Assembly: GCA_018340375.1 (NCBI GenBank)
Contig: JAFFJZ010000020.1
Span: forward strand, 744,001-808,000
Reading direction: 5' to 3'
Source: Gonatopus flavifemur
Taxonomy: Eukaryota; Arthropoda; Insecta; Hymenoptera; Dryinidae
DNA: 64,000 bases
In this document: positions 15,131 to 62,221 of the stretch, in pieces
Layout: each line of letters starts with the position of its first letter
Numbering within the stretch: the stretch's first letter is position 1
Made by a program: the position numbers and the translations under genes
The notes under the pieces: model-generated
Databases searched by the model: none
What the model saw: only the letters and a program-made list of their open reading frames with translations
Told to the model about the DNA's origin: nothing

Positions 15131-15590
15131 AATGTAAGAATATATATTCATCATCGTTGATATTCAAGAGAAGGATTATCTGCAATCAAACAGAATTGAA
15201 AATACGGATATCAAATGAAAAAATAAGTATTTGAGAGTAAGGATATTTCGGAATATTATATACAGGGTGGTCCATTTGGAGTGATATAGTCAAATATCTC
15301 GGAAACTAGTGGAGATGGGAAAAAATGTTTCAGATAAAAAGCTTGGGGTTCCAAAGGGGAAGTATGATGCTGACCTTGAAAAATCCCTCAGAGGTCATTT
15401 CAAAGGTCATTTAGGAGTCAAGACGGTTTTTTGAAATGGGACTCCCATTTTTTTATCATGGCATGGGGAAGCTGGTTTCAAACCCTTTACGAGACACTGG
15501 TCATGGACTCCCTTCCGCCCATTGGGGTGCAAGGTATGGACCGTCGAAGTTATCGATGAACTACTCTTAGCGCTACCCAGGAACAACGTT

Positions 15591-17312
15591 GTGGACGTGG
15601 TAGTTCTCTGTTTCCTCCGGAGTGCTTGATTATCGTGAGTCCCCTTGCCTCTCACATGTGGAGTGCTTGATTATTGTGAGTCCCCTTGCCTCTCACATGA
15701 GAGGTGCTTGATACTGTTACAATGATTGCTCGAAGTTACCCCCCTCTGGATACATAATCCCAGTCTCCGCCGAAAATTTGTAACCGTCTTCAGAAACACT
15801 GATCCTGGTATGTTGGCACAAACAGTGCGGATGTGATCGATCATGTCCTCCCTCGTTGTTCATTGGGCCTTGAATACTTCGTCTTTCAGGAATCCCCACA
15901 AGAAAAAGTCGGGGGATGTCAAGTCGGGGGAGCGTGGAGGCTACGCAACTAGCCCACCTCGTCCAATCCACCTTCCCGGGAGGTGATGATCGAGGTATCC
16001 TCTCACGATCAATGCGTAATGGGTTGGTGCTCCATCTAGTTGGACCCACATCCTCTGCCTTGTTTGTAAATCCAGATCCTCAAGCAAGCCTGGTAAATGA
16101 TCCACCAGAAATTCCAGAGACATGAGGCCGTTCAAAGTGCCGTTGAAAAAATGTGGACCGCCTAAATAGCCATCGACGATCCCGCATCACACATTTACGT
16201 TCCAACGATGTTGGTTATCGATTGCTCGATACCAATGCGGATTAACATCCGACCAGTAATGAGAATTGTGCCTATTCAAATTCCCAGTGGTCTGAAAAGA
16301 TGCTTCGTCGAGGACATTACATAGTCGAAGAATGGAGGATCTCCAACCAGCCTTGCTCGTGCCCAGTTGCAGAATCTAATTCGAAGTCTCATGTCGTTTG
16401 CAGTGAGAGCTTGAATTAACGTAATGTGGTATGGTCGATATTTGACATGCTTCAAGATTCTCAAAACAGTAGTCCGGGGTATACCAGTTATTCGTGCCAA
16501 CGATCTGTTACTAACATGAGGGTCCAAGTGGATAAGTCCCAATATGGTGAGTGATCGGATATCATTCTCATCGTACCGGTGATGTCTTAGATCTCGCTGC
16601 AATACTCCTCGTCGAGCCCTCAATTCGAGTCGACGGATGGTCGTGGTGTGTGTGAAGCGGCGAACGGGATACCGATCCCGGTAAACTCTTGCGGCTTCGT
16701 TGTAATTATTATGACATGAGCCAAGCACAAGCATCATATCAACAATTTCAGAGGGTGGATAGTGATTCATTTCTTCGATTGAATCGAATGGAATGAATTG
16801 ATGAATGTAGATGATTGAATATGCAAAGGAGAAGAACGATTGTGATGGTCTCAATTTAGAATCAGCGTTTAAATGATCACGTATTTCCGTAATCATCCAC
16901 ATAACCAACCATAATAAACAGAAATTCGATGTTTCTGTTTGTTTATGTATCCTTGTTCATCGCTTTTCTCCGAAGATCGGGACTGATTTCAATGCAGATC
17001 AGAGTTACTTCATTGGAACAAAACCTAAACATAAACAAACGGGAAGACTGAGTCTCTGCTCATTATGGTTGGCAGTAATGTGTACGATTTATTACGATTA
17101 TTGTGTTTCAAATCGAATAAACTATTCCATTTGATTCAATGAAGGTTATAAATGAGTATCGACTCTCCAAAATTGTTGGAAGGGTGCTGGAAACATTGGA
17201 AGTATTGAAAATTATTGTAACAGCATCAAAGCACCCCTCATGTGAGAGGCGAGGGGACTCACGATAATCACGCAATCCGGAGGGAACAGAGAACTACCAC
17301 ATCCACGTCGCA
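15591..17312 (-). mobile_element. Tc1/mariner DD41D-type transposon
   Basis: Boundaries come from comparing the left terminal repeat with the uninterrupted right one: CAGGAACAACG and CGCACAGTGG are adjacent at 24040 but 1.7 kb apart here. The ends are inverted copies of TGGAYGTGGTAGTTCTCTGT, continuing through GTGAGTCCCCTTGCCTCTCA. The left terminal repeat has a partial duplication of about 50 bp near 15600-15700. Confidence 0.75.
15720..16770 (-). pseudogene. DD41D-type Tc1/mariner transposase, broken
   Basis: The ATG at 16770 begins MNHYPPSEIVDMMLVLGSCH, then two helix-turn-helix regions (TTTIRRLELRAR; PHVSNRSLARITGIPRTTV) and RPYHITLIQALT. The catalytic part is in other frames: LDEASF with the first acidic residue, MWVQLDGAPTHY with the second, and PPRSPDLTSPDFFLWGFLKD with the third. 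By my count 41 residues separate the second and third Asp, the DD41D (rosa/Visitor-type) spacing. A frameshift near 16300, in-frame stops and a stop after FKAQ make it inactive. Confidence 0.8.
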
Positions 17313-17905
17313 CAGTGGGGTCAAATGCCAAAAAGCTGGCCAAAACCCCAAAGATGAAGTAGGTAGTTGGGGATATTTGACCCTTGGGATAAGTAAGGTG
17401 ATGTCCCAAGTATTGGAATTCTGATATAAGAAGATCTGATCCCCTCCCCCTGCCCTTGTGTACCAGTTGCAAAATACCTTCCTTGAAGTATAATCCGCGT
17501 GATTGAAAGACAGTAAAATAACGAGCATGTTCAAAAAGACGCTGTGTCTCGAAAAATGAACCGATTCAACTTTTTCAAATTGGAGTCTATTACTGGAACT
17601 ATGTAGAATACACTGAAAATTGAGAGAATATCAATTTGATGAGTGGAAAATACTGACAGAGCAATGATTGGATGTAATTTCTATATCTATAAATGAGAAA
17701 ATGTGTTTGGTTTTTGAAGGAATAGTAGAGAATTACGCGAAATTACGTCGTTTAACTTATTGGAGGTGGTAGATGGGACTCTTACCTAAACATCAGAAGA
17801 AAAAACGGCTGCCCATGTCTGCCCCTAAGCAATTCCGCCATGTTTTTGTGCAGGAAATCACAAAAAATTAGACGGAGTGATGAGGAGTCCTTAGATCCGT
17901 CTGAA
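17313..17905. other. Inner part of the left terminal repeat and spacer
   Basis: Continues the left terminal repeat of the 9.5-kb element (GGGTCAAATGCCAAAAAGCT), then unique AT-rich DNA up to the 121-bp array. No gene seen. Confidence 0.6.
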
Positions 17906-17909
17906 ACTT

Positions 17910-18310
17910 GATATGCAAAAGTTTGTGGGGTCGCTGATTATGAATCCGTTGTTTTCATTTCGGAATTCAAAATGGCGGATCCAATATGGCGGACGAAAAT
18001 TGAAAGAGATCATCGGATTTTCTTCAAATTCGTTACCCAGGGGTTTTTGAGGTCGCTGATTACGAATCCGTTGTTTGAATTTCAAAATTCAAAATGGCGG
18101 ATCCAAAATGGCGGATGGAAATTGAAAAAATCATCGGATTGCCTTCAAACTCGGTACCCTGAGGTTTTCAAGGTCGCTGATTCCGAATCCGGTGTCTGAA
18201 TTCCGGAATTCAGAATGGCGGATCCAGTTTGGCAGAAAAAAATTGAAAAAATCATCAGATTTCCTTCAAACCCGGTATCCAGGGTTTTGTGGGGTCATTG
18301 ATTACGAATC
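17910..18310 (+). repeat. 121-bp satellite array, left, about 3.5 copies
   Basis: ATGGCGGATCC recurs at 17972, 18093 and 18214, an exact 121-bp step. Each unit holds CGCTGATTACGAATCCG, AATGGCGGATCCAATATGGC and ATCATCGGATT. The same unit occurs inverted at 23165-23985 and once at about 30870-30970. Confidence 0.9.
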
Positions 18311-18980
18311 AGTTGTCAAATTCCAAGAATCAAAGATAGCGTATCTAATATGGTAGACACAAAACTCAGAGTTCAGTAGATTCGCTTTGAATTTTATCTC
18401 AACGTTAGTATGTGTTTTATTTCCAGTGTACATTTGCTGCACGAGGAAAACTGTATGAGATTGATTACCATTCGTTTTTCTTCTCATCGCGGGCTTAGGG
18501 TACACAAAAGCCAGAAATCATTGATATTTAGGATGAATCATTATATTTACTATGAGTTGATGAATTCACTATGGGAAATGACAATAAAACTACCAACATT
18601 TAGTATTACTACGAATTTTCGGTAACTTCACTGCTAACATTCTTCAGCGATGCTCTTTTTCCCTAAAGTAACCGTCATTTTCCTAAATGTTTATAAATGT
18701 TATTCAAGTATTGATATCTCTTTTCTTTTCGTGAACTGAATCATGACTCGCGATTTGGTGATCGTTCTTATGTTAACCTATCGTTTCCATGGCAACTTAA
18801 ATAGTTGGTTGTAATCGGTCTGATTTCAAATGTTGCTTATCACAATTGTGCAATAGCTGTCACCGAATTCTTACTCTTGCTAGTAATCGTTACCGTAAAC
18901 TTTTTTCCGCGTGCAAGTTTGGAGCTTGGTGAATATTTTTCGTTTTTTTAAAATCATTCAATGTTAACATACAATTCCAA
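18311..18980. other. Spacer between array and RAG1-like gene
   Basis: AT-rich, presumably the upstream region of the gene. Contains an X-box-like palindrome at 18783. No other gene seen. Confidence 0.5.
18783..18796. promoter_or_regulatory. Candidate RFX X-box upstream of the RAG1-like gene
   Basis: GTTTCCATGGCAAC matches the X-box consensus and lies about 200 bp upstream of the first ATG. It may be a promoter element; no expression evidence is available from sequence. Confidence 0.35.
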
Positions 18981-19194
18981 ATGAGATGGATTCCGCTGCC
19001 ATAGGTGAGTGTTTCAACAACCTATATTTTCTTAGTAGTTTAATTTGAACAGTTGACTGCAAAAAAAAATTAGCTTAAGAGGGTTGAATCCAACCCAAGA
19101 AAATTAGGAAAATCTTTAGAAACACATGCGGTTTCTGTAGCGAATTTTATCGAATTCTACAACGTTTGTAGATTTCAAAGATGATTCAATATCT

Positions 19195-19911
19195 ATGACT
19201 CGGAGAGAGATGTACAATATTTTAAGGAGCAGTCCTCTATCTACGTTGGATGAAAAGTTCACTTTCCTTCAAGGAAAAATCATCGAGATAACGTGTTGTC
19301 CGGATAACAAAACTACAGAGATCTCTAACCTTTTATCTACTTTCAAATGTGTATTTAAAAAGAGATTGGAATCTTCTCAAAGGACCGAAGAACGATTTCT
19401 TAAAAATAATGAAGAATGGTTAAAACAAGAGGTAGTGTTTTGTACTTCCAGGAATCCCCATTATGTAACTGTTCACACGCAAGTGGGAAGACCTCTTGTT
19501 GGATTCAACGAATGTTCAGAAAGAACGAAACGTAGGAAAACGGAGAATATCAGAGTAAATACTCCTATCTCAGAGCTGTCTTACGTTACACAAATGTGTT
19601 TGAGAGCGTCTGGACAGATCGAAGCCGCAAAAATTGTAAAGGATGTTACATCTTCTGATCCTGAGCTTGCCAAAATGTATATGAAAGGTTATCAAACTTT
19701 CAAGCGAAATGAGCCAAAGATGTTGAATGATGAAGATGCTCTAGCTGTCCTAGTAGATGCCGAGCTCTCAAAACATCAGTATTGCTTATTGCGTGGAGCT
19801 GATCCGCAGAAATTTCCACCTTATAAAAAAATTCAACTGGCCAAACGCATGTGTTTCCCTGACGAGGAATTTATTCAAATAACAGAAACCTGCGCTGTTG
19901 TGCAAATTTAA
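19195..19911 (+). pseudogene. RAG1-like gene, N-terminal open segment
   Basis: A 238-codon open stretch upstream of the recombinase core. It has a Lys/Arg-rich patch (CSERTKRRKTEN, about residues 113-124), then LNDEDALAVLVDAELSKHQ and YCLLRGADPQKFPPYKKIQL. The pattern LSKxQYxxxR...YPPYxKxxxAK is one I remember from Transib-type proteins, where it precedes the catalytic core. The first ATG here is internal: in-frame homologous text (RKLGKSLETHAVSVANFIEF) starts about 19090 in the other frame. The TAA at 19909 is followed directly by further family-like text (LLDHTATRISKLQ), so the stop looks like a point mutation. Confidence 0.65.
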
Positions 19912-20012
19912 GCACTTCTTGATCACACAGCTACACGTATTTCAAAGCTACAGAATTCGGTTTTGTCAACTCTATCTGATGAAGAGTTACAAAACCTGGT
20001 ACTTATTTCCAA

Positions 20013-20390
20013 ATGGGGGTTGATGGGAGCTCTGGCCACTCCGCATACAAACAAGCATATCAAAGTTCGGAAGCTAGTGATTCCGCTGTGTTCATTACTT
20101 CACTTGTGCCTCTCCGCCTACACTGCAATTCAAAAATAATTTGGCAGAATCGAAGGCCATCATCAACCAGATTTTGTAGGCCAATCAAAATAGAGTTCGT
20201 GGAAGAATCAACTGAAGTTTCGGTTGCAGAGAAGCTACGGGTTGATAATGAAATAGGAAATCTGAGGGCTACTTCTTTCAGAACTGATGACAAACATGTT
20301 TCAGTGAAACATGAGATGATTTTTTCTATGGTGGACGGGAAGGTATGCAATGCCATAACTGAGACAACCTATACCCAGAAGTGCTATATA
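20013..20390 (+). pseudogene. RAG1-like core, 5' part up to the mariner
   Basis: The frame encodes VDGSSGHSAYKQAYQSS with the putative first catalytic Asp (codon 20022-20024), VFITSLVPLRL, then a beta-rich region ending FSMVDGKVCNAITETTYTQK and CYI at the mariner site. In RAG1 the equivalent stretch lies between D600 and the CxxC zinc motif. The codon preceding VDG in relatives is usually Cys or Gly; here it is Gly-Val. Confidence 0.65.
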
Positions 20391-21657
20391 CGAGGGTGGA
20401 TTGATAAGTTTCCGGCCTGACCAAGAAAAACAACGTTTTTAAGAATTTTTTTTTTTTATTTCTCAACATAATCTCCTCCAAGGCTGATACATTTCTCATA
20501 GCGGTGTTCTAGTCTAGTAATGCCATCTCTATAGACTGATTCGTCAAGCTCCTCAAAATACCCATTTACAGCTTCGATTACTTCTTCATTGTCCGCAAAT
20601 CTCTTACCGCCAAGCCATTTTTTGAGGTTAGGAAACAGATAATAGTCACTCGGGGCTAGGTCTAAGGAGTAGGGAGGGTGCGGCATTAATTCAAACTTCA
20701 GATCGTTGATTTTAGCCATCGCAACGATTGACGTGTGCGCTGGTGCGTTATCGTGATGAAACAAGATTTTTTTCTTCGCCAGATGAGGTCGTTTAATTTT
20801 CACTTCGTGGCTCAAACGTTGCAATAAGTCTGCGTAGTATTGACCAGTGATAGTTTTACCCTTTTTAAGGTAATCAATGTATATAATACCTCTTGCATCC
20901 CAAAAAACAGTAGCCATAACCTTGTTCGCCGAAAAAATTGTTTTTGCCTTCTTTGGAGTTGGTTCCCCTGGTCCAATCCACTGTTTAGACTGTTCTTTGG
21001 TTTCAGGAGTGTAGTGGTGGACCCAAGTTTCGTCAATGGTTACGAATCGACGCAAAAATTCGCTTGGATTACGCTTATACAACGCCAAATTGGCGGTAGA
21101 AATGTTCTTTCGAATCAATTTTTGGTCGACTGTTAGCAAACGCGGCACCCATCTTGCACAGAGCTTTTCCATATACAAATGTTGGTGCAAAATATTTTGT
21201 ACACGTTCATATGACATCTTACAGGTCTCAGCTATCTCACGAACTTTTAATCTGCGATCTTTCAGCACTATTTGATGGATTTTTTCGATCATATCTGGAG
21301 TTATGACCTCAATGGGGCGTCCTGAGCGAGGCTCATCAGAGGTGCTTACACGACCCTTTTTAAACTCGGAAACCCACTGCTTAACGGTTGAATATGATGG
21401 GGAGGATGTCCCCAGTGTTGAGTCCATCTCTTCTTTAATTTCCTTCGGCGTTAACCCCTTCAAATAAAAGCTTTTCCATTTTTACGAAAAACACAGAGGC
21501 GTCTTGGTCAGCGTGCTCTCAAAACTAAACTAACATGGCGATCGGACTGAAACTATAGCTACAAGCTATCTAAGGATGGTACTATAGAACGCCACCTCAA
21601 GGTAGGCCTAGTGGCGCCATCTCTTGGTCAGGCCGGAAACTTATCAATCCACCCTCG
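20391..21657 (-). mobile_element. mariner element 1, full length
   Basis: Inverted ends of 36 bp, identical, beginning CGAGGGTGGATTGATAAGTT and ending with its complement, flanked by TA (20389-20390 and 21658-21659). 1,267 bp, the usual size for mariner. It sits inside the CYIC codons of the RAG1-like gene. Confidence 0.95.
20456..21479 (-). pseudogene. mariner transposase (DD34D), near-intact
   Basis: The transposase cuts and pastes its own element. Open for 335 codons on the minus strand: an N-terminal helix-turn-helix region (SPSYSTVKQWVSEFKKG; RRLKVREIAETCKMSYERV), then the catalytic domain with VTIDETWVHHY, ILFHHDNAPAHT and LDLAPSDYYLFPNL. The three Asp are present with 34 residues between the second and third. 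The usual YSPDLAP is YSLDLAP. The natural ATG (MEKLLF, at 21477-21479) is one base out of frame with the rest, which otherwise opens at a TTG (21463). A one-base indel near 21465 therefore probably inactivates it. Confidence 0.9.
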
Positions 21658-22238
21658 TATGTGGTGCCACATTTAAGGAATTCAACAAAATTGATGATAT
21701 AGTATCCAGGCCGGTCAAAACCGAAAACCTCCAGTTTGGTTTGTCTTGTCTACACGGCTGGATACGATTTTTTGAGGGCCTCCTGCATTTGTCTTATAAG
21801 CTACCTATTCAGAAGTGGCAAGCACGAAAACAAGATAAAGCTTTGGTGGAAGAACGAAAAAAGGTTGTACAGAAAAGTTTTAAAGAAAAATGTGGCCTCA
21901 TTGTCGATGTTCCTAAGCCAGGGTTTGGGAACTCAAATGATGGGAATACCGCTAGGCGATCTTTCGCACAACCCGAAGTTTCTGCCGAAATCACAGGGGT
22001 GGATGTCAACCTAATACAACGACTTCATGTAGTATTAGCTACCGTTTTAAGAGGCCATGAAATAGACGTTGAACAAAATATATTGTCGCTACTACGCGAC
22101 AAAATATCCGTGGTACCCAATGTCACCTACGATGCACAAGTTTTTGATCCACGGACCTGAAATCATTGCATCTGCTCTTCTACCTATAGGCCAATTGACT
22201 GAGGAAGCACAAGAGGCTCGTAACAAAGATTTTAAAAG
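21658..22238 (+). pseudogene. RAG1-like core, 3' part after the mariner
   Basis: Begins at the second TA of the mariner. Counting the TA once restores the reading phase CYIC-GATF. It continues with FGLSCLHGWIRFFEGLLHLS, EERKKVVQKSFKEKCG, KPGFGNSNDGNTARRSF and EITGVDVNL. A +1 frameshift near 22108 moves to the frame reading KYPWYPMSPTMHKFLIHGPE, then LLPIGQLTEEAQEARNKDFK, ending at an AAAAG/GTGAAA splice donor at 22238/22239. Confidence 0.7.
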
Positions 22239-22714
22239 GTGAAAATGATGTATATCACTTAATAATAGTCTATATTTGTCACAGTGGACTCGACACTTTG
22301 AAGGGAAAAATTTGACTTCTCAAGTACTGCAATCAGTTTGATACATTGCACAATACGTTTTTGACTACTAGGCAAACTATATATTTATGGTAACCACGAG
22401 AATATATGTTCGCGAAGATTGTTTTGTTCTGGTAAGGAATTCGGGGAATTATGAATATTCATATACTTTTTTTTATTAATAAGCCACATTGTTCATCCTC
22501 TGGAAACATAAATTCATAGACTAGAAAACAATTTTGAGAATCAAGTAAACTTATGAATTAGAGGATTTATTCAAAACTTTATACTGATGACCCCAAAGTG
22601 CAGCTGCTTTTTGTTTTTCCTTGATTTTGCTTGTCATGTTGAGATCAAAAGCTTTAACGGTGTCGATGAATACATAATTATATTTAAATATCTTAACAAC
22701 ATTCATTTCCAAAG
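22239..22714 (+). other. Spliceosomal intron in the RAG1-like gene
   Basis: AAAAG/GTGAAA at the 5' side and TTCCAAAG/GTACCG at the 3' side. Joining restores DFK-RYRKHH in phase, and the two halves of the conserved motif meet exactly. The intron is AT-rich with a T-rich tract near 22465-22475. Confidence 0.75.
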
Positions 22715-22928
22715 GTACCGAAAGCATCACTCCAGGAAATGCAGTAGAGAAAAAACGAATGAAGACATTTTTAAATGGTTCCTTTTGAGTTCTGATCCAA
22801 TGTTATCGAGTAAAAGACAGTTGCCCAAGAAAAAACTAAAGTTTCTCCCTAGAGACGTGTTAAGCCTTGATAAAGACAACGTAACTTTCCCATTATCTTC
22901 CTCTCAGAGTGAAGAAGAAGAAGACTGA
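22715..22928 (+). pseudogene. RAG1-like gene, last exon
   Basis: Encodes RYRKHHSRKCSREKTNEDIF, LLSSDPMLSSKRQLPKKKLK and an acidic tail SSSQSEEEED before TGA. The basic RYRKHHSRK is at the place of RAG1 RRFRKMNARQSK. This exon is open. Confidence 0.65.
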
Positions 22929-23160
22929 TCTGAGTAAAAAAAGTGTGGCAAAAGTAAAAACCATTACGATTTCAGTTTTTTATATTATTGTATATATTGT
23001 GAATGTATATATCTTTCGATTTAACACATTTGATGTGTTAATATCATTCGATAATTATATTAATAATGATTCAATGTTGGAAATAATAATAATAATGATC
23101 ATAATAGGAACAACAAAATGGGCCGTTTAGTTCTTGTTTAATATTGAGTTATGAATGAAG
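22929..23160. other. Downstream of the RAG1-like gene
   Basis: Very AT-rich spacer to the right satellite array. No signal I would call a terminal repeat of a smaller, separate transposon. Confidence 0.5.
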
Positions 23161-23164
23161 TTTT

Positions 23165-23985
23165 GATTTTTGGCATCCGCCATCCTGAATTTCGGAATTC
23201 TGACAACGGATTCGTGATCAGCGATCCCGAAAACCCCTGGGTACCGAGTTTGAAGAAAATGCGATGATTTTCTTAATTTTTGTCCACCATATTGGATCCG
23301 CCATTCTGAATTTCAAAATTTTGACAACGGATTCGTAATTGGTGACCCCAAAAACTCCTGGATGCCGAGTTTGAAGAAAATCCGAAGATCTTCTTGATTT
23401 TATTTCACCATATTGGATCCGCCATTTTGAATTTCGAAATGCAGACAACGGATTTGTAATCAGCGACCCGAAAAATACGTGAGTAGCCAATTTTAAAAGA
23501 ATCCGATGATTTTTTCAATCTTCGTCCGCCATATTGGATTCGCCATTCTGAATTTGGGAACTCAGACAGCGGATTCGTAATCAGCGACCCCGAAAACCCC
23601 TGATCACCAAATTTGAAAAAAATCCGATGATTTCTTCCAATTTTCGTCCACCATATTGGATCCGCCATTTTGAATTCCGAAATGAGAACAACGGATCCGT
23701 AATCAGCGACCCCAAAAACCGTTGGGTACTCAATTTGAGGAGAATCCGATGATTTTTAAAATTTTCGTCCGCCATATTGGATTCGCCCGTTTGAATTTCG
23801 GAACTCAAACAGCAGATTCGTAATCAGCGACCCCAAAAACCCCTGATCATCAAGTTTGAAGAAAATCCGATGGTTTCTTTCAATTTTCGTCCGCCATATT
23901 GGATCCGCCATTTTGAATTTTGAAATTCTGACAACGGATTCGTAATCAGTGACCCCATCGATTTCCCGAGTACGAAGTCGCAAGC
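23165..23985 (-). repeat. 121-bp satellite array, right, seven copies
   Basis: CGCCATNYTG recurs at about 23177, 23298, 23419, 23540, 23661, 23782 and 23903, every 121 bp, in the orientation opposite to the 17.9-kb array. Each unit has two GCCATNTT-type words 16 bp apart. Overlapping 75-93-codon minus-strand frames are repeat side effects. Confidence 0.9.
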
Positions 23986-24325
23986 GAATTTGAGAGCCCC
24001 TCATAATTTTTTCCAGCTTTTTGGCATTTGGCCCCACTGTGCGTCGTTGTTCCTGGGTAGCGCTAAGAGTAGTTCATCAATAACTTCGACGGTCCATACC
24101 TTGCACCTCAATGAGCGAGAAGGGATCCATTACCAGTGTTTCGTAAAGGGTTTGGAACCAGCTTCCCCATGCCATGATAAAAAATGGGGGTCCTATTTAG
24201 AAAAACCATCTTGACCCCTAAATGACCTTCAAAATCATCTCTGAGGGATTTTTCAAAGTCAGCATCATGCTCCCCCTTTGGAACCCCTAACTTCTCATCT
24301 GGAACATTTTTTTCCATCTCCACTA

Positions 24326-24695
24326 CACGGAGAGAAAAAATTCGCTGACGCAGCAAATTGAGGTATTATATATAGGATAGCAAAAGTTTTTGCTGACCTG
24401 GCTAAAAATTTGCTAGAACAGCAATCGTGTTAGCTACGACAGCAATTTTTTAGCTGTGGCAGCAAGAAATGTTTGCTCCGCCAGCAAATTTTCAGTATTA
24501 TATACAGAATAGCAAACAAATTTTGCTGGGATAGCAAACATTTTTTGCTGCCACAGCTAAAAATTAGCTGTCGCAGCTAACAAGATTGCTGGAACAGTAA
24601 ATAGTTTGCCGTCACAGCAAAAAATCTGCTGCTCTGGCAAAAGGAACCCAGCAAAAGTAGATTTCGCTGCCACAGCGAATTCCTTTTTCTCCGTG
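24326..24695. repeat. TA-flanked MITE, CACGGAGAAAA ends, CAGCAA words
   Basis: CACGGAGAGAAAAAATTCGC at the left, GCGAATTCCTTTTTCTCCGTG-type complement at the right; TA at 24324-24325 and 24696-24697. The interior is more than a dozen TTGCTG/CAGCAA/TAGCTG words in both orientations. The empty site is seen in the other terminal repeat of the host element (AAACTAGTGGAG at 15307). Confidence 0.9.
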
Positions 24696-24751
24696 TAGTT
24701 TCCGAGATATTTGACTATATCACTTCAAATGGACCACCCTGTATCTGCATA

Positions 24752-26035
24752 CAGGTTGGTTGAAAAGTTCCTGCGCTCGAAATGAAAGAATACTTTTTTT
24801 GTGACGAAATATATTTTTTTATTCAATTTAATCTCCTAGAAGCTCAATACACTTGTTCCAATGATCTTCCAATAATTTCATCCCATCCTTATAATGGTTT
24901 TCCGGAAGCTCTGCAAAATAACCGTCTACGGCTGCTATGGCCTCTTCACTCGACGAAAAATGCTTCCCACGAAGGAATTGTTTGAGATTTCTGAAGAGAT
25001 AGTAGTCGCTAGGAGCCAAATCTGGCGAATACGGTGGATGTTCAAGCAATTCGTACTTGAGTTCTTCGAATTTAGCCATCGTCAAAACACTTTTGTGGGC
25101 AGGTGCCTTATCTTGATGAAAAATGATTTTTTTCTTCTTTAAACCAGGTCTCTTCTCACGAATTTCTTCATCCAGCTGATCCAAAAGGCTGCAGTAATAT
25201 TCGGAGTTTTACCTTTCTGAAGATAATCAATGAACAAAATTCCTTTTGCATCCCAAAAAACTGATGCCATAACCTTCTTCGCTAATCGTTGTGACTTCAC
25301 CTGCTTTGGAGCTGAACAACCAGCTTCAGTCCACTGTGAACGTTCTTGTTTCAATTCAGGATCATGGTGGTAGATCCAAGTCTTATCCATAGTTATAAAA
25401 CGACGCGAGAAGTCGGTTTTATTCTGCTTAAAACGCTCCGAATTACGCCGAGAAATTTGTTTTCGATCCAGTTTTTGTTGAATTGTTAACGTGTGCGGCA
25501 CTAACTTTCCAAACAGTTTTTTCATACGTAATTCTTCATGTAAAATATGGAGTACTCGTTCGTCTGAGATGCCTATGGCATTAGCAATTTCACGCTTAGT
25601 CAAACTTGGATCTTCACTAACCATATTATGTACATTCTCAATGATTTCTGCTGTGGTTGCAGTTTTTGGTCGTCCTTCGCGGGGATCGTCTTCAAGGCTA
25701 GTACGACCACGTGTAAATTCACCAGCCCAAAATTCAACGGTGCGTTTTGACGGTGAGGACTCCTTATACACTTCTAACAATTGTTCATAAATTTTCTTTG
25801 CTTTTGAACCCTTCAAAACAAAGAATCTAATGACTGCACGATATTCAATTTTTTCCATATTAAGAAAAATCAATGACACGTCAACTTCAAATGGCTTGTA
25901 AACAAAGAATGAATTGACAGAATGACTTGTAACTTTGCATGTGTTCTCAGGACAGATATACCAACTCGAGAAAAAAAAAGTTTCGAGCTAGCAGTGCTAT
26001 CTCTTGGTGAGCGCAGGAACTTTTCAACCAACCTG
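24752..26035 (-). mobile_element. mariner element 2, full length
   Basis: Inverted ends of 27 bp starting CAGGTTGGTTGAAAAGTTCC, identical at both ends, flanked by TA (24750-24751 and 26036-26037). 1,284 bp. It landed a few bases outside the right end of the 9.5-kb element. Confidence 0.95.
24828..25858 (-). pseudogene. mariner transposase (DD34D), frameshifted
   Basis: The ATG at 25858 starts MEKIEYRAVIRFFVLKGSKA, then paired helix-turn-helix regions (SPSKRTVEFWAGEF; LTKREIANAIGISDERVLHI), WVPxL replaced by KLVPHTLT, and the first catalytic Asp in TMDKTWIYHH (DE in relatives, DK here). A frameshift near 25,180-25,200 leads into the C-terminal frame with IIFHQDKAPAHK (normally HDNAPAH) and YSPDLAPSDYYLFRNL. 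The frameshift and the changes beside the first two Asp make activity very unlikely. Confidence 0.9.
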
Positions 26036-58660: not shown

Positions 58661-58974
58661 GTGGGTGGGTGGGTGGAGTGGGTGGGTGGCAGTGGGTGGG
58701 TGGGTGGGTGGGTGGGTGGGTGGGTGGGTGGGTGGGTGGGTGGGTGGGTGGAGTGGGTGGGTGGGTGGGTGGGTGGGTGGAGTGGAGTGGGTGGGTGGGT
58801 GGGTGGTGGGTGGGTGGGTGGGTGGAGTGGAGTGGGTGGGTGGGTGGGTGGGTGGGTGGGTGGGTGGGTGGGTGGGTGGGTGGGTGGGTGGGTGGGTGGG
58901 TGGGTGGGTGGGTGGGTGGGTGGGTGGGTGGGTGGGTGGGTGGAGTGGAGTGGGTGGGTGGGTGGGGGTGGGTG
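58661..58974 (+). repeat. (GGGT)n tract
   Basis: About 314 bp of GGTG/GGGT units with GGAGT and GGTGG interruptions; the longest uninterrupted run is about 110 bp (58833-58943). Four or more consecutive GGGT units can form parallel G-quadruplexes. Confidence 0.95.
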
Positions 58975-62188
<3,214 letters not shown>

Positions 62189-62221
62189 TAGGTAGGTAGG
62201 ATGTTGAGGTTCGATTCCCGC

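Follow-up and report, generated by a model that had tools for sequence, protein, structure and literature searches.

An inactive Transib-superfamily transposon from a family abundant in the Gonatopus flavifemur genome

Introduction

Does a RAG1-like gene in the hymenopteran insect Gonatopus flavifemur hold new information on the origin of V(D)J recombination? The gene lies in a 64,000-nucleotide stretch of contig JAFFJZ010000020.1 (assembly GCA_018340375.1, positions 744,001 to 808,000, forward strand), here called the window, to which all coordinates refer. An earlier note, made from the sequence alone, had read a single transposon gene at 18986-22928, with a RAG1/Transib-type recombinase core and a zinc site, as informative for that origin. 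We found that the gene sits within a 6.7-kb element having inverted ends and target duplications. Almost certainly, this element is an inactive member of the Transib superfamily of cut-and-paste DNA transposons, from a family with abundant copies in this insect's genome. The assignment is based on homology, ends, target duplications, copy number and lesions, all of which were directly observed.

Results

Homology to HzTransib

In sequence searches of solved-structure entries, three pieces of the gene matched HzTransib of Helicoverpa zea: 21612-22157 (E 2.8e-31), 19983-20417 (E 2.1e-23) and 19141-19908 (E 7.3e-5). Since separate pieces each gave this match, a chance match is excluded. When the window protein was used as a query with its pieces separated by X, 734 proteins were found at E ≤ 0.001 among 7989 scored candidates. 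Details on homologues rest on the best 120 of these 734; a species is named for 12 of the 120 listed, and all 12 are insects.

A profile was built from 29 of the 120 listed homologues, hand-picked to spread over the ranking. As the earlier note had proposed, it was compared with Transib, ProtoRAG and RAG1, and it matched HzTransib with an E value of 4.7e-180, amphioxus RAG1L with 4e-12 and RAG1 with 2.1e-9 or weaker. The putative zinc Cys and His residues, whose C2 and H2 motifs may jointly bind one zinc, are invariant in the alignment (29/29 homologues), and the predicted fold matches both HzTransib and RAG1 (the latter over model residues 208-671). Together with the HzTransib matches, these results bear out the recombinase core with C2/H2 zinc residues. 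The triad D126, D225 and E436, which we take from PMC6941560 to be that of HzTransib, aligns with the family profile, always shifted by 17 positions in a count by hand, and is conserved. Pfam domain PF26100 is precomputed for RAG1 proteins and for many Transib homologues alike. By its sequence, the protein is a homologue of Transib transposases with a DDE triad in the RAG1/Transib arrangement.

The element might instead stand on the RAG1 side, as a RAG1-like (RAGL) transposon, or what is left of one, that once had a RAG2-like partner gene. Profile and fold do match RAG1 and RAG1L structures, but the match to HzTransib is far stronger (603 bits versus 48 for RAG1L and 39 for RAG1), and identity in the Foldseek rows is 41-44% to HzTransib versus 12-16% to RAG1L/RAG1. 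At 5.1-7.0 kb, the related copies described below could hardly accommodate another large gene in addition to their repeat arrays. Judged from profile scores, structural identity and element length, a RAGL origin is very improbable.

Ends and gene parts of the element

The transposon in the window comprises the following features.

17306-17310, no strand: left target-site duplication, CGTCG
17311-17339, plus strand: left terminal inverted repeat (TIR), 29 bp, first seven bases CACAGTG, one mismatch versus the right end
17894-18363, plus strand: left subterminal array of ~121-bp units, an inverted-repeat arm (Tandem Repeats Finder [TRF] array 17929-18316, 3.2 copies)
18986-19004, plus strand: predicted coding exon 1, which reads MDSAAI and one further base before a GT donor (in-silico splice)
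19181-20031, plus strand: N-terminal part of the transposase, with a GRP region (VGRPLV, 19483-19500), running into the beginning of the core; the TAA at 19909-19911 is premature
20019-20390, plus strand, new frame: RNase H part, carrying codons for the first and second catalytic Asp (20022, 20334) and, as CYI, the opening of the C2 zinc motif
20391-21657, minus strand: mariner inserted at TA (TA duplicated, 20389-20390 and 21658-21659), splitting the zinc motif CYIC after CYI
21660-22157, plus strand: transposase, continued, with the second Cys of CYIC, EERKK and NDGNTARR
22132-22238, plus strand, another frame: zinc His pair of HKFLIH (22135, 22150) and catalytic Glu (22213)
22239-22714, plus strand: predicted intron, GT...AG, between FKR and YRK
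22715-22928, plus strand: predicted last exon, YRKHHSRK...EEEED, then stop (in-silico splice)
23170-23957, minus strand: right subterminal array of ~121-bp units, 6.5 copies (TRF), opposite in orientation to the left array
24013-24041, minus strand: right TIR
24042-24046, no strand: right target-site duplication, CGTCG

The TIR reads CACAGTGGGG[C/T]CAAATGCCAAAAAGCTGG from 17311 and is inverted at 24041, with CGTCG immediately outside each end. Its first seven bases are the consensus heptamer CACAGTG of the recombination signal sequence (RSS), and Transib target duplications are given as 5 bp with a GC bias (both in PMC8289069). The element has TIRs opening with an RSS-heptamer-like CAC and 5-bp GC-biased target-site duplications.

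The host site is one arm of a larger long-TIR element. The opposite arm preserves the target with no Transib in it; the pentamer of this empty target differs at two bases. The long-TIR element spans 15260-24744 (TIR ATACAGGGTGGTCC...), its arm stretches are 90% and 98% alike, and Transib lies in the right arm. It also contains a 226-amino-acid (aa) stop-to-stop open reading frame (ORF) with an HTH_24 match (minus strand, 16276-16956).

Copies across the genome

A search of the genome (636 Mb, 402 contigs) with one transposase piece yielded 3480 candidates, 150 of which were scored, window copy included; by this count there are at least 150 copies. We fetched 20 sibling copies, selected mostly for long open frames, and located their ends by the TIR pattern with up to 5 mismatches allowed. 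Both TIRs were found in 17 siblings, one in 2 and none in 1. All 17 two-ended siblings, 5.1-7.0 kb in length, carry an exact CACAGTG at each end, as does the window copy. Identical pentamers flank 13 of the 17, 7 of these 13 fitting CGNCG. Over the two stretches compared (the second split in two pieces in one sibling), the 17 siblings share 96.3-97.8% and 94.9-96.0% identity with the window copy.

The 121-bp unit motif occurs in both orientations in 20/20 siblings (1-4 forward, 2-9 reverse). Genome-wide, the unit was scored at no fewer than 40 places (of 1862 candidates), 21 of these 40 within ~4 kb of a listed transposase match, as determined by hand. The remaining 19 may be copies outside the transposase matches listed, or non-autonomous copies.

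A simple splice rule could be applied to 6/17 siblings, yielding 682-689 aa in five and 632 aa in one. For the remaining 11 the rule failed, presumably owing to small sequence differences.

Damage to the window copy

The motifs quoted in the earlier note were all located, and in the order given there: VDGSSGHS (20019-20042), CYI (20382-20390), EERKKVVQKSF (21849-21881), NDGNTARR (21936-21959), MHKFLIHGPEII (22132-22167), EEAQEARNKDFKR (22201-22239) and YRKHHSRK (22716-22739). No single frame holds them all, and the gene lacks a continuous open frame. The earlier note set mouse RAG1 residues D600, C727/C730, H937/H942 and E962 beside them. The limits of the single gene proved exact (ATG at 18986, stop at 22928), but neither the mariner that interrupts it nor the surrounding 6.7-kb element with inverted ends had been reported. 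The residues of CYIC and NKDFKRYRK are present, but as composites: CYIC and EEAQEARNKDFKRYRK are both interrupted at the DNA level. A 1.27-kb mariner element separates CYI from the next Cys codon (21660), and the KR and YRK of NKDFKRYRK flank an intron-like stretch (22239-22714).

In addition to the premature in-frame TAA, the window copy has frame changes near 20016-20031 and again between 22076 and 22087. Under the simple splice rule a stop is reached after 249 aa. The codons of the DDE triad are still readable; judged from these lesions, the copy cannot make transposase. The nested mariner contains a 341-aa stop-to-stop ORF with a Transposase_1 domain (Pfam), and its ends are identical over 36 bp (38 including TA). 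It is possibly young, because of this long open frame and the identical ends.

That the locus is a domesticated host gene of Transib origin, as its predicted introns and the annotated full-length homologues in other insects might suggest, is most improbable and for the window copy already refuted, since this copy is disrupted by a stop, by frame changes and by a mariner, is bounded by TIRs and a target duplication, and is accompanied by at least 149 other scored matches in the genome.

Nonamer, N-terminal region and weaker points of the case

An RSS nonamer was sought at the ends and rejected. The best nonamer-like blocks were CCAAAACCC on the left (22-bp spacer, 7/9) and ACAAAATTA on the right (spacer 22, 6/9); a further block, CCAAAAAGC, has a 10-bp spacer at both ends (7/9). 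Since these matches are no better than shuffles, no 12/23 claim is made.

The GRP-containing N-terminal region gave a 32-residue profile match to the nonamer-binding domain (NBD) of RAG1 (P 8.4e-4, probability only 24%), a score reached by 0/200 column shuffles. An NBD equivalent with a conserved GRP has already been reported in Transib (PMC9435367, 2022). Thus, the NBD-like N-terminus is not new, and our test agrees weakly with the published equivalent.

Several results are weaker points of the case. The best nonamer score was reached by 3653 and 977 of 10000 base shuffles, and the flanking pentamers differ in 4/17 two-ended siblings (by one base in two of them). The profile aligned with RAG1L, and likewise with RAG1, in two separate stretches, the best single stretch having an E value of 2.2e-7 for RAG1L and 7.1e-4 for RAG1. 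None of five homologues tested reached the Pfam RAG1 cut-off (best 24.2 versus 25 bits), and the 120-homologue profile aligned 480 columns with 99 fish RAG1 sequences at only 54.8% probability. Against membership of the Transib family itself we found no counter-evidence. Pfam gave nothing above cut-off for the four broken Transib pieces of the window.

Other features of the window

A second mariner-like transposase lies on the minus strand at 24828-25987, broken into two frames. A GTGG microsatellite (58661-58974) is followed by a 3.2-kb GCAG array, 99% regular, with 807 copies (58661-62200 overall).

Discussion

HzTransib (PDB 6pqn, 6pqx) and the family described here have in common the transposase core, the DDE triad and the C2/H2 zinc residues, as well as TIRs and 5-bp target duplications (PMC1852546). 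The same paper gives HzTransib as 3518 bp and 489 aa, whereas the sibling genes of this family specify ~685 aa, of which roughly 185 precede the start of the match to the solved HzTransib chain, and the two-ended ones measure 5.1-7.0 kb, with two predicted introns and inverted arrays of 121-bp units. The RAG1 core and the RAG1L of ProtoRAG (PDB 5zdz, 3jbw, 6b40) share the predicted fold over model residues 208-671 and have the catalytic and zinc residues in identical order. They differ in sequence (12-16% Foldseek identity), and a 12/23 RSS structure is not supported at the ends here. Most Transib families are reported to have symmetric TIRs, as does HzTransib, whose TIRs show little or no nonamer similarity (PMC8289069), and some Transibs have symmetric 20-22 bp spacers (PMC8355894). 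The unnamed 711-aa protein LOC115890777 of Sitophilus oryzae is annotated and, unlike the broken window copy, full-length; it aligns with 97% of the query at 54% identity.

Cleavage chemistry and the hairpin step would be those of studied relatives. Sibling copies can encode a ~685-aa DDE transposase with an RNase H fold which, by homology to HzTransib, would bind the CACAGTG-type ends and nick at the heptamer. Hairpins would then form on the flanking DNA, the element would be excised, and it would reinsert through 5-bp GC-rich staggered cuts. By such an insertion the window copy entered one arm of the long-TIR element. Afterwards, point and indel changes disabled it and a mariner inserted inside the zinc motif, in whatever relative order.

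The 121-bp subterminal arrays could conceivably give the transposase additional places to bind or help to pair the ends, perhaps via the NBD-like N-terminal region, which lies outside the solved HzTransib chain; we regard this as unlikely. A narrow look at the literature found no description of such arrays for Transib, which does not establish their absence from print. If they had this role, it would be an end architecture not found described for Transib.

PMC4411706 and PMC7204232 trace RAG1 and the RSSs to Transib or to an ancestor common with it, and the RAG1-Transib relation is likewise established in PMC9435367. The novelty suggested for the origin of V(D)J recombination is therefore not upheld: with the RAG1 link, the duplications, the TIRs and the NBD equivalent already published, the window element is an ordinary broken member of a known superfamily, and its identity brings nothing new to the connection with V(D)J recombination. 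The Transib family in this genome has probably been active recently. It is a possible resource, as a high-copy family that combines intact full-length genes with a CACAGTG end and an N-terminal GRP region, whereas structural work has been based on the shorter HzTransib.
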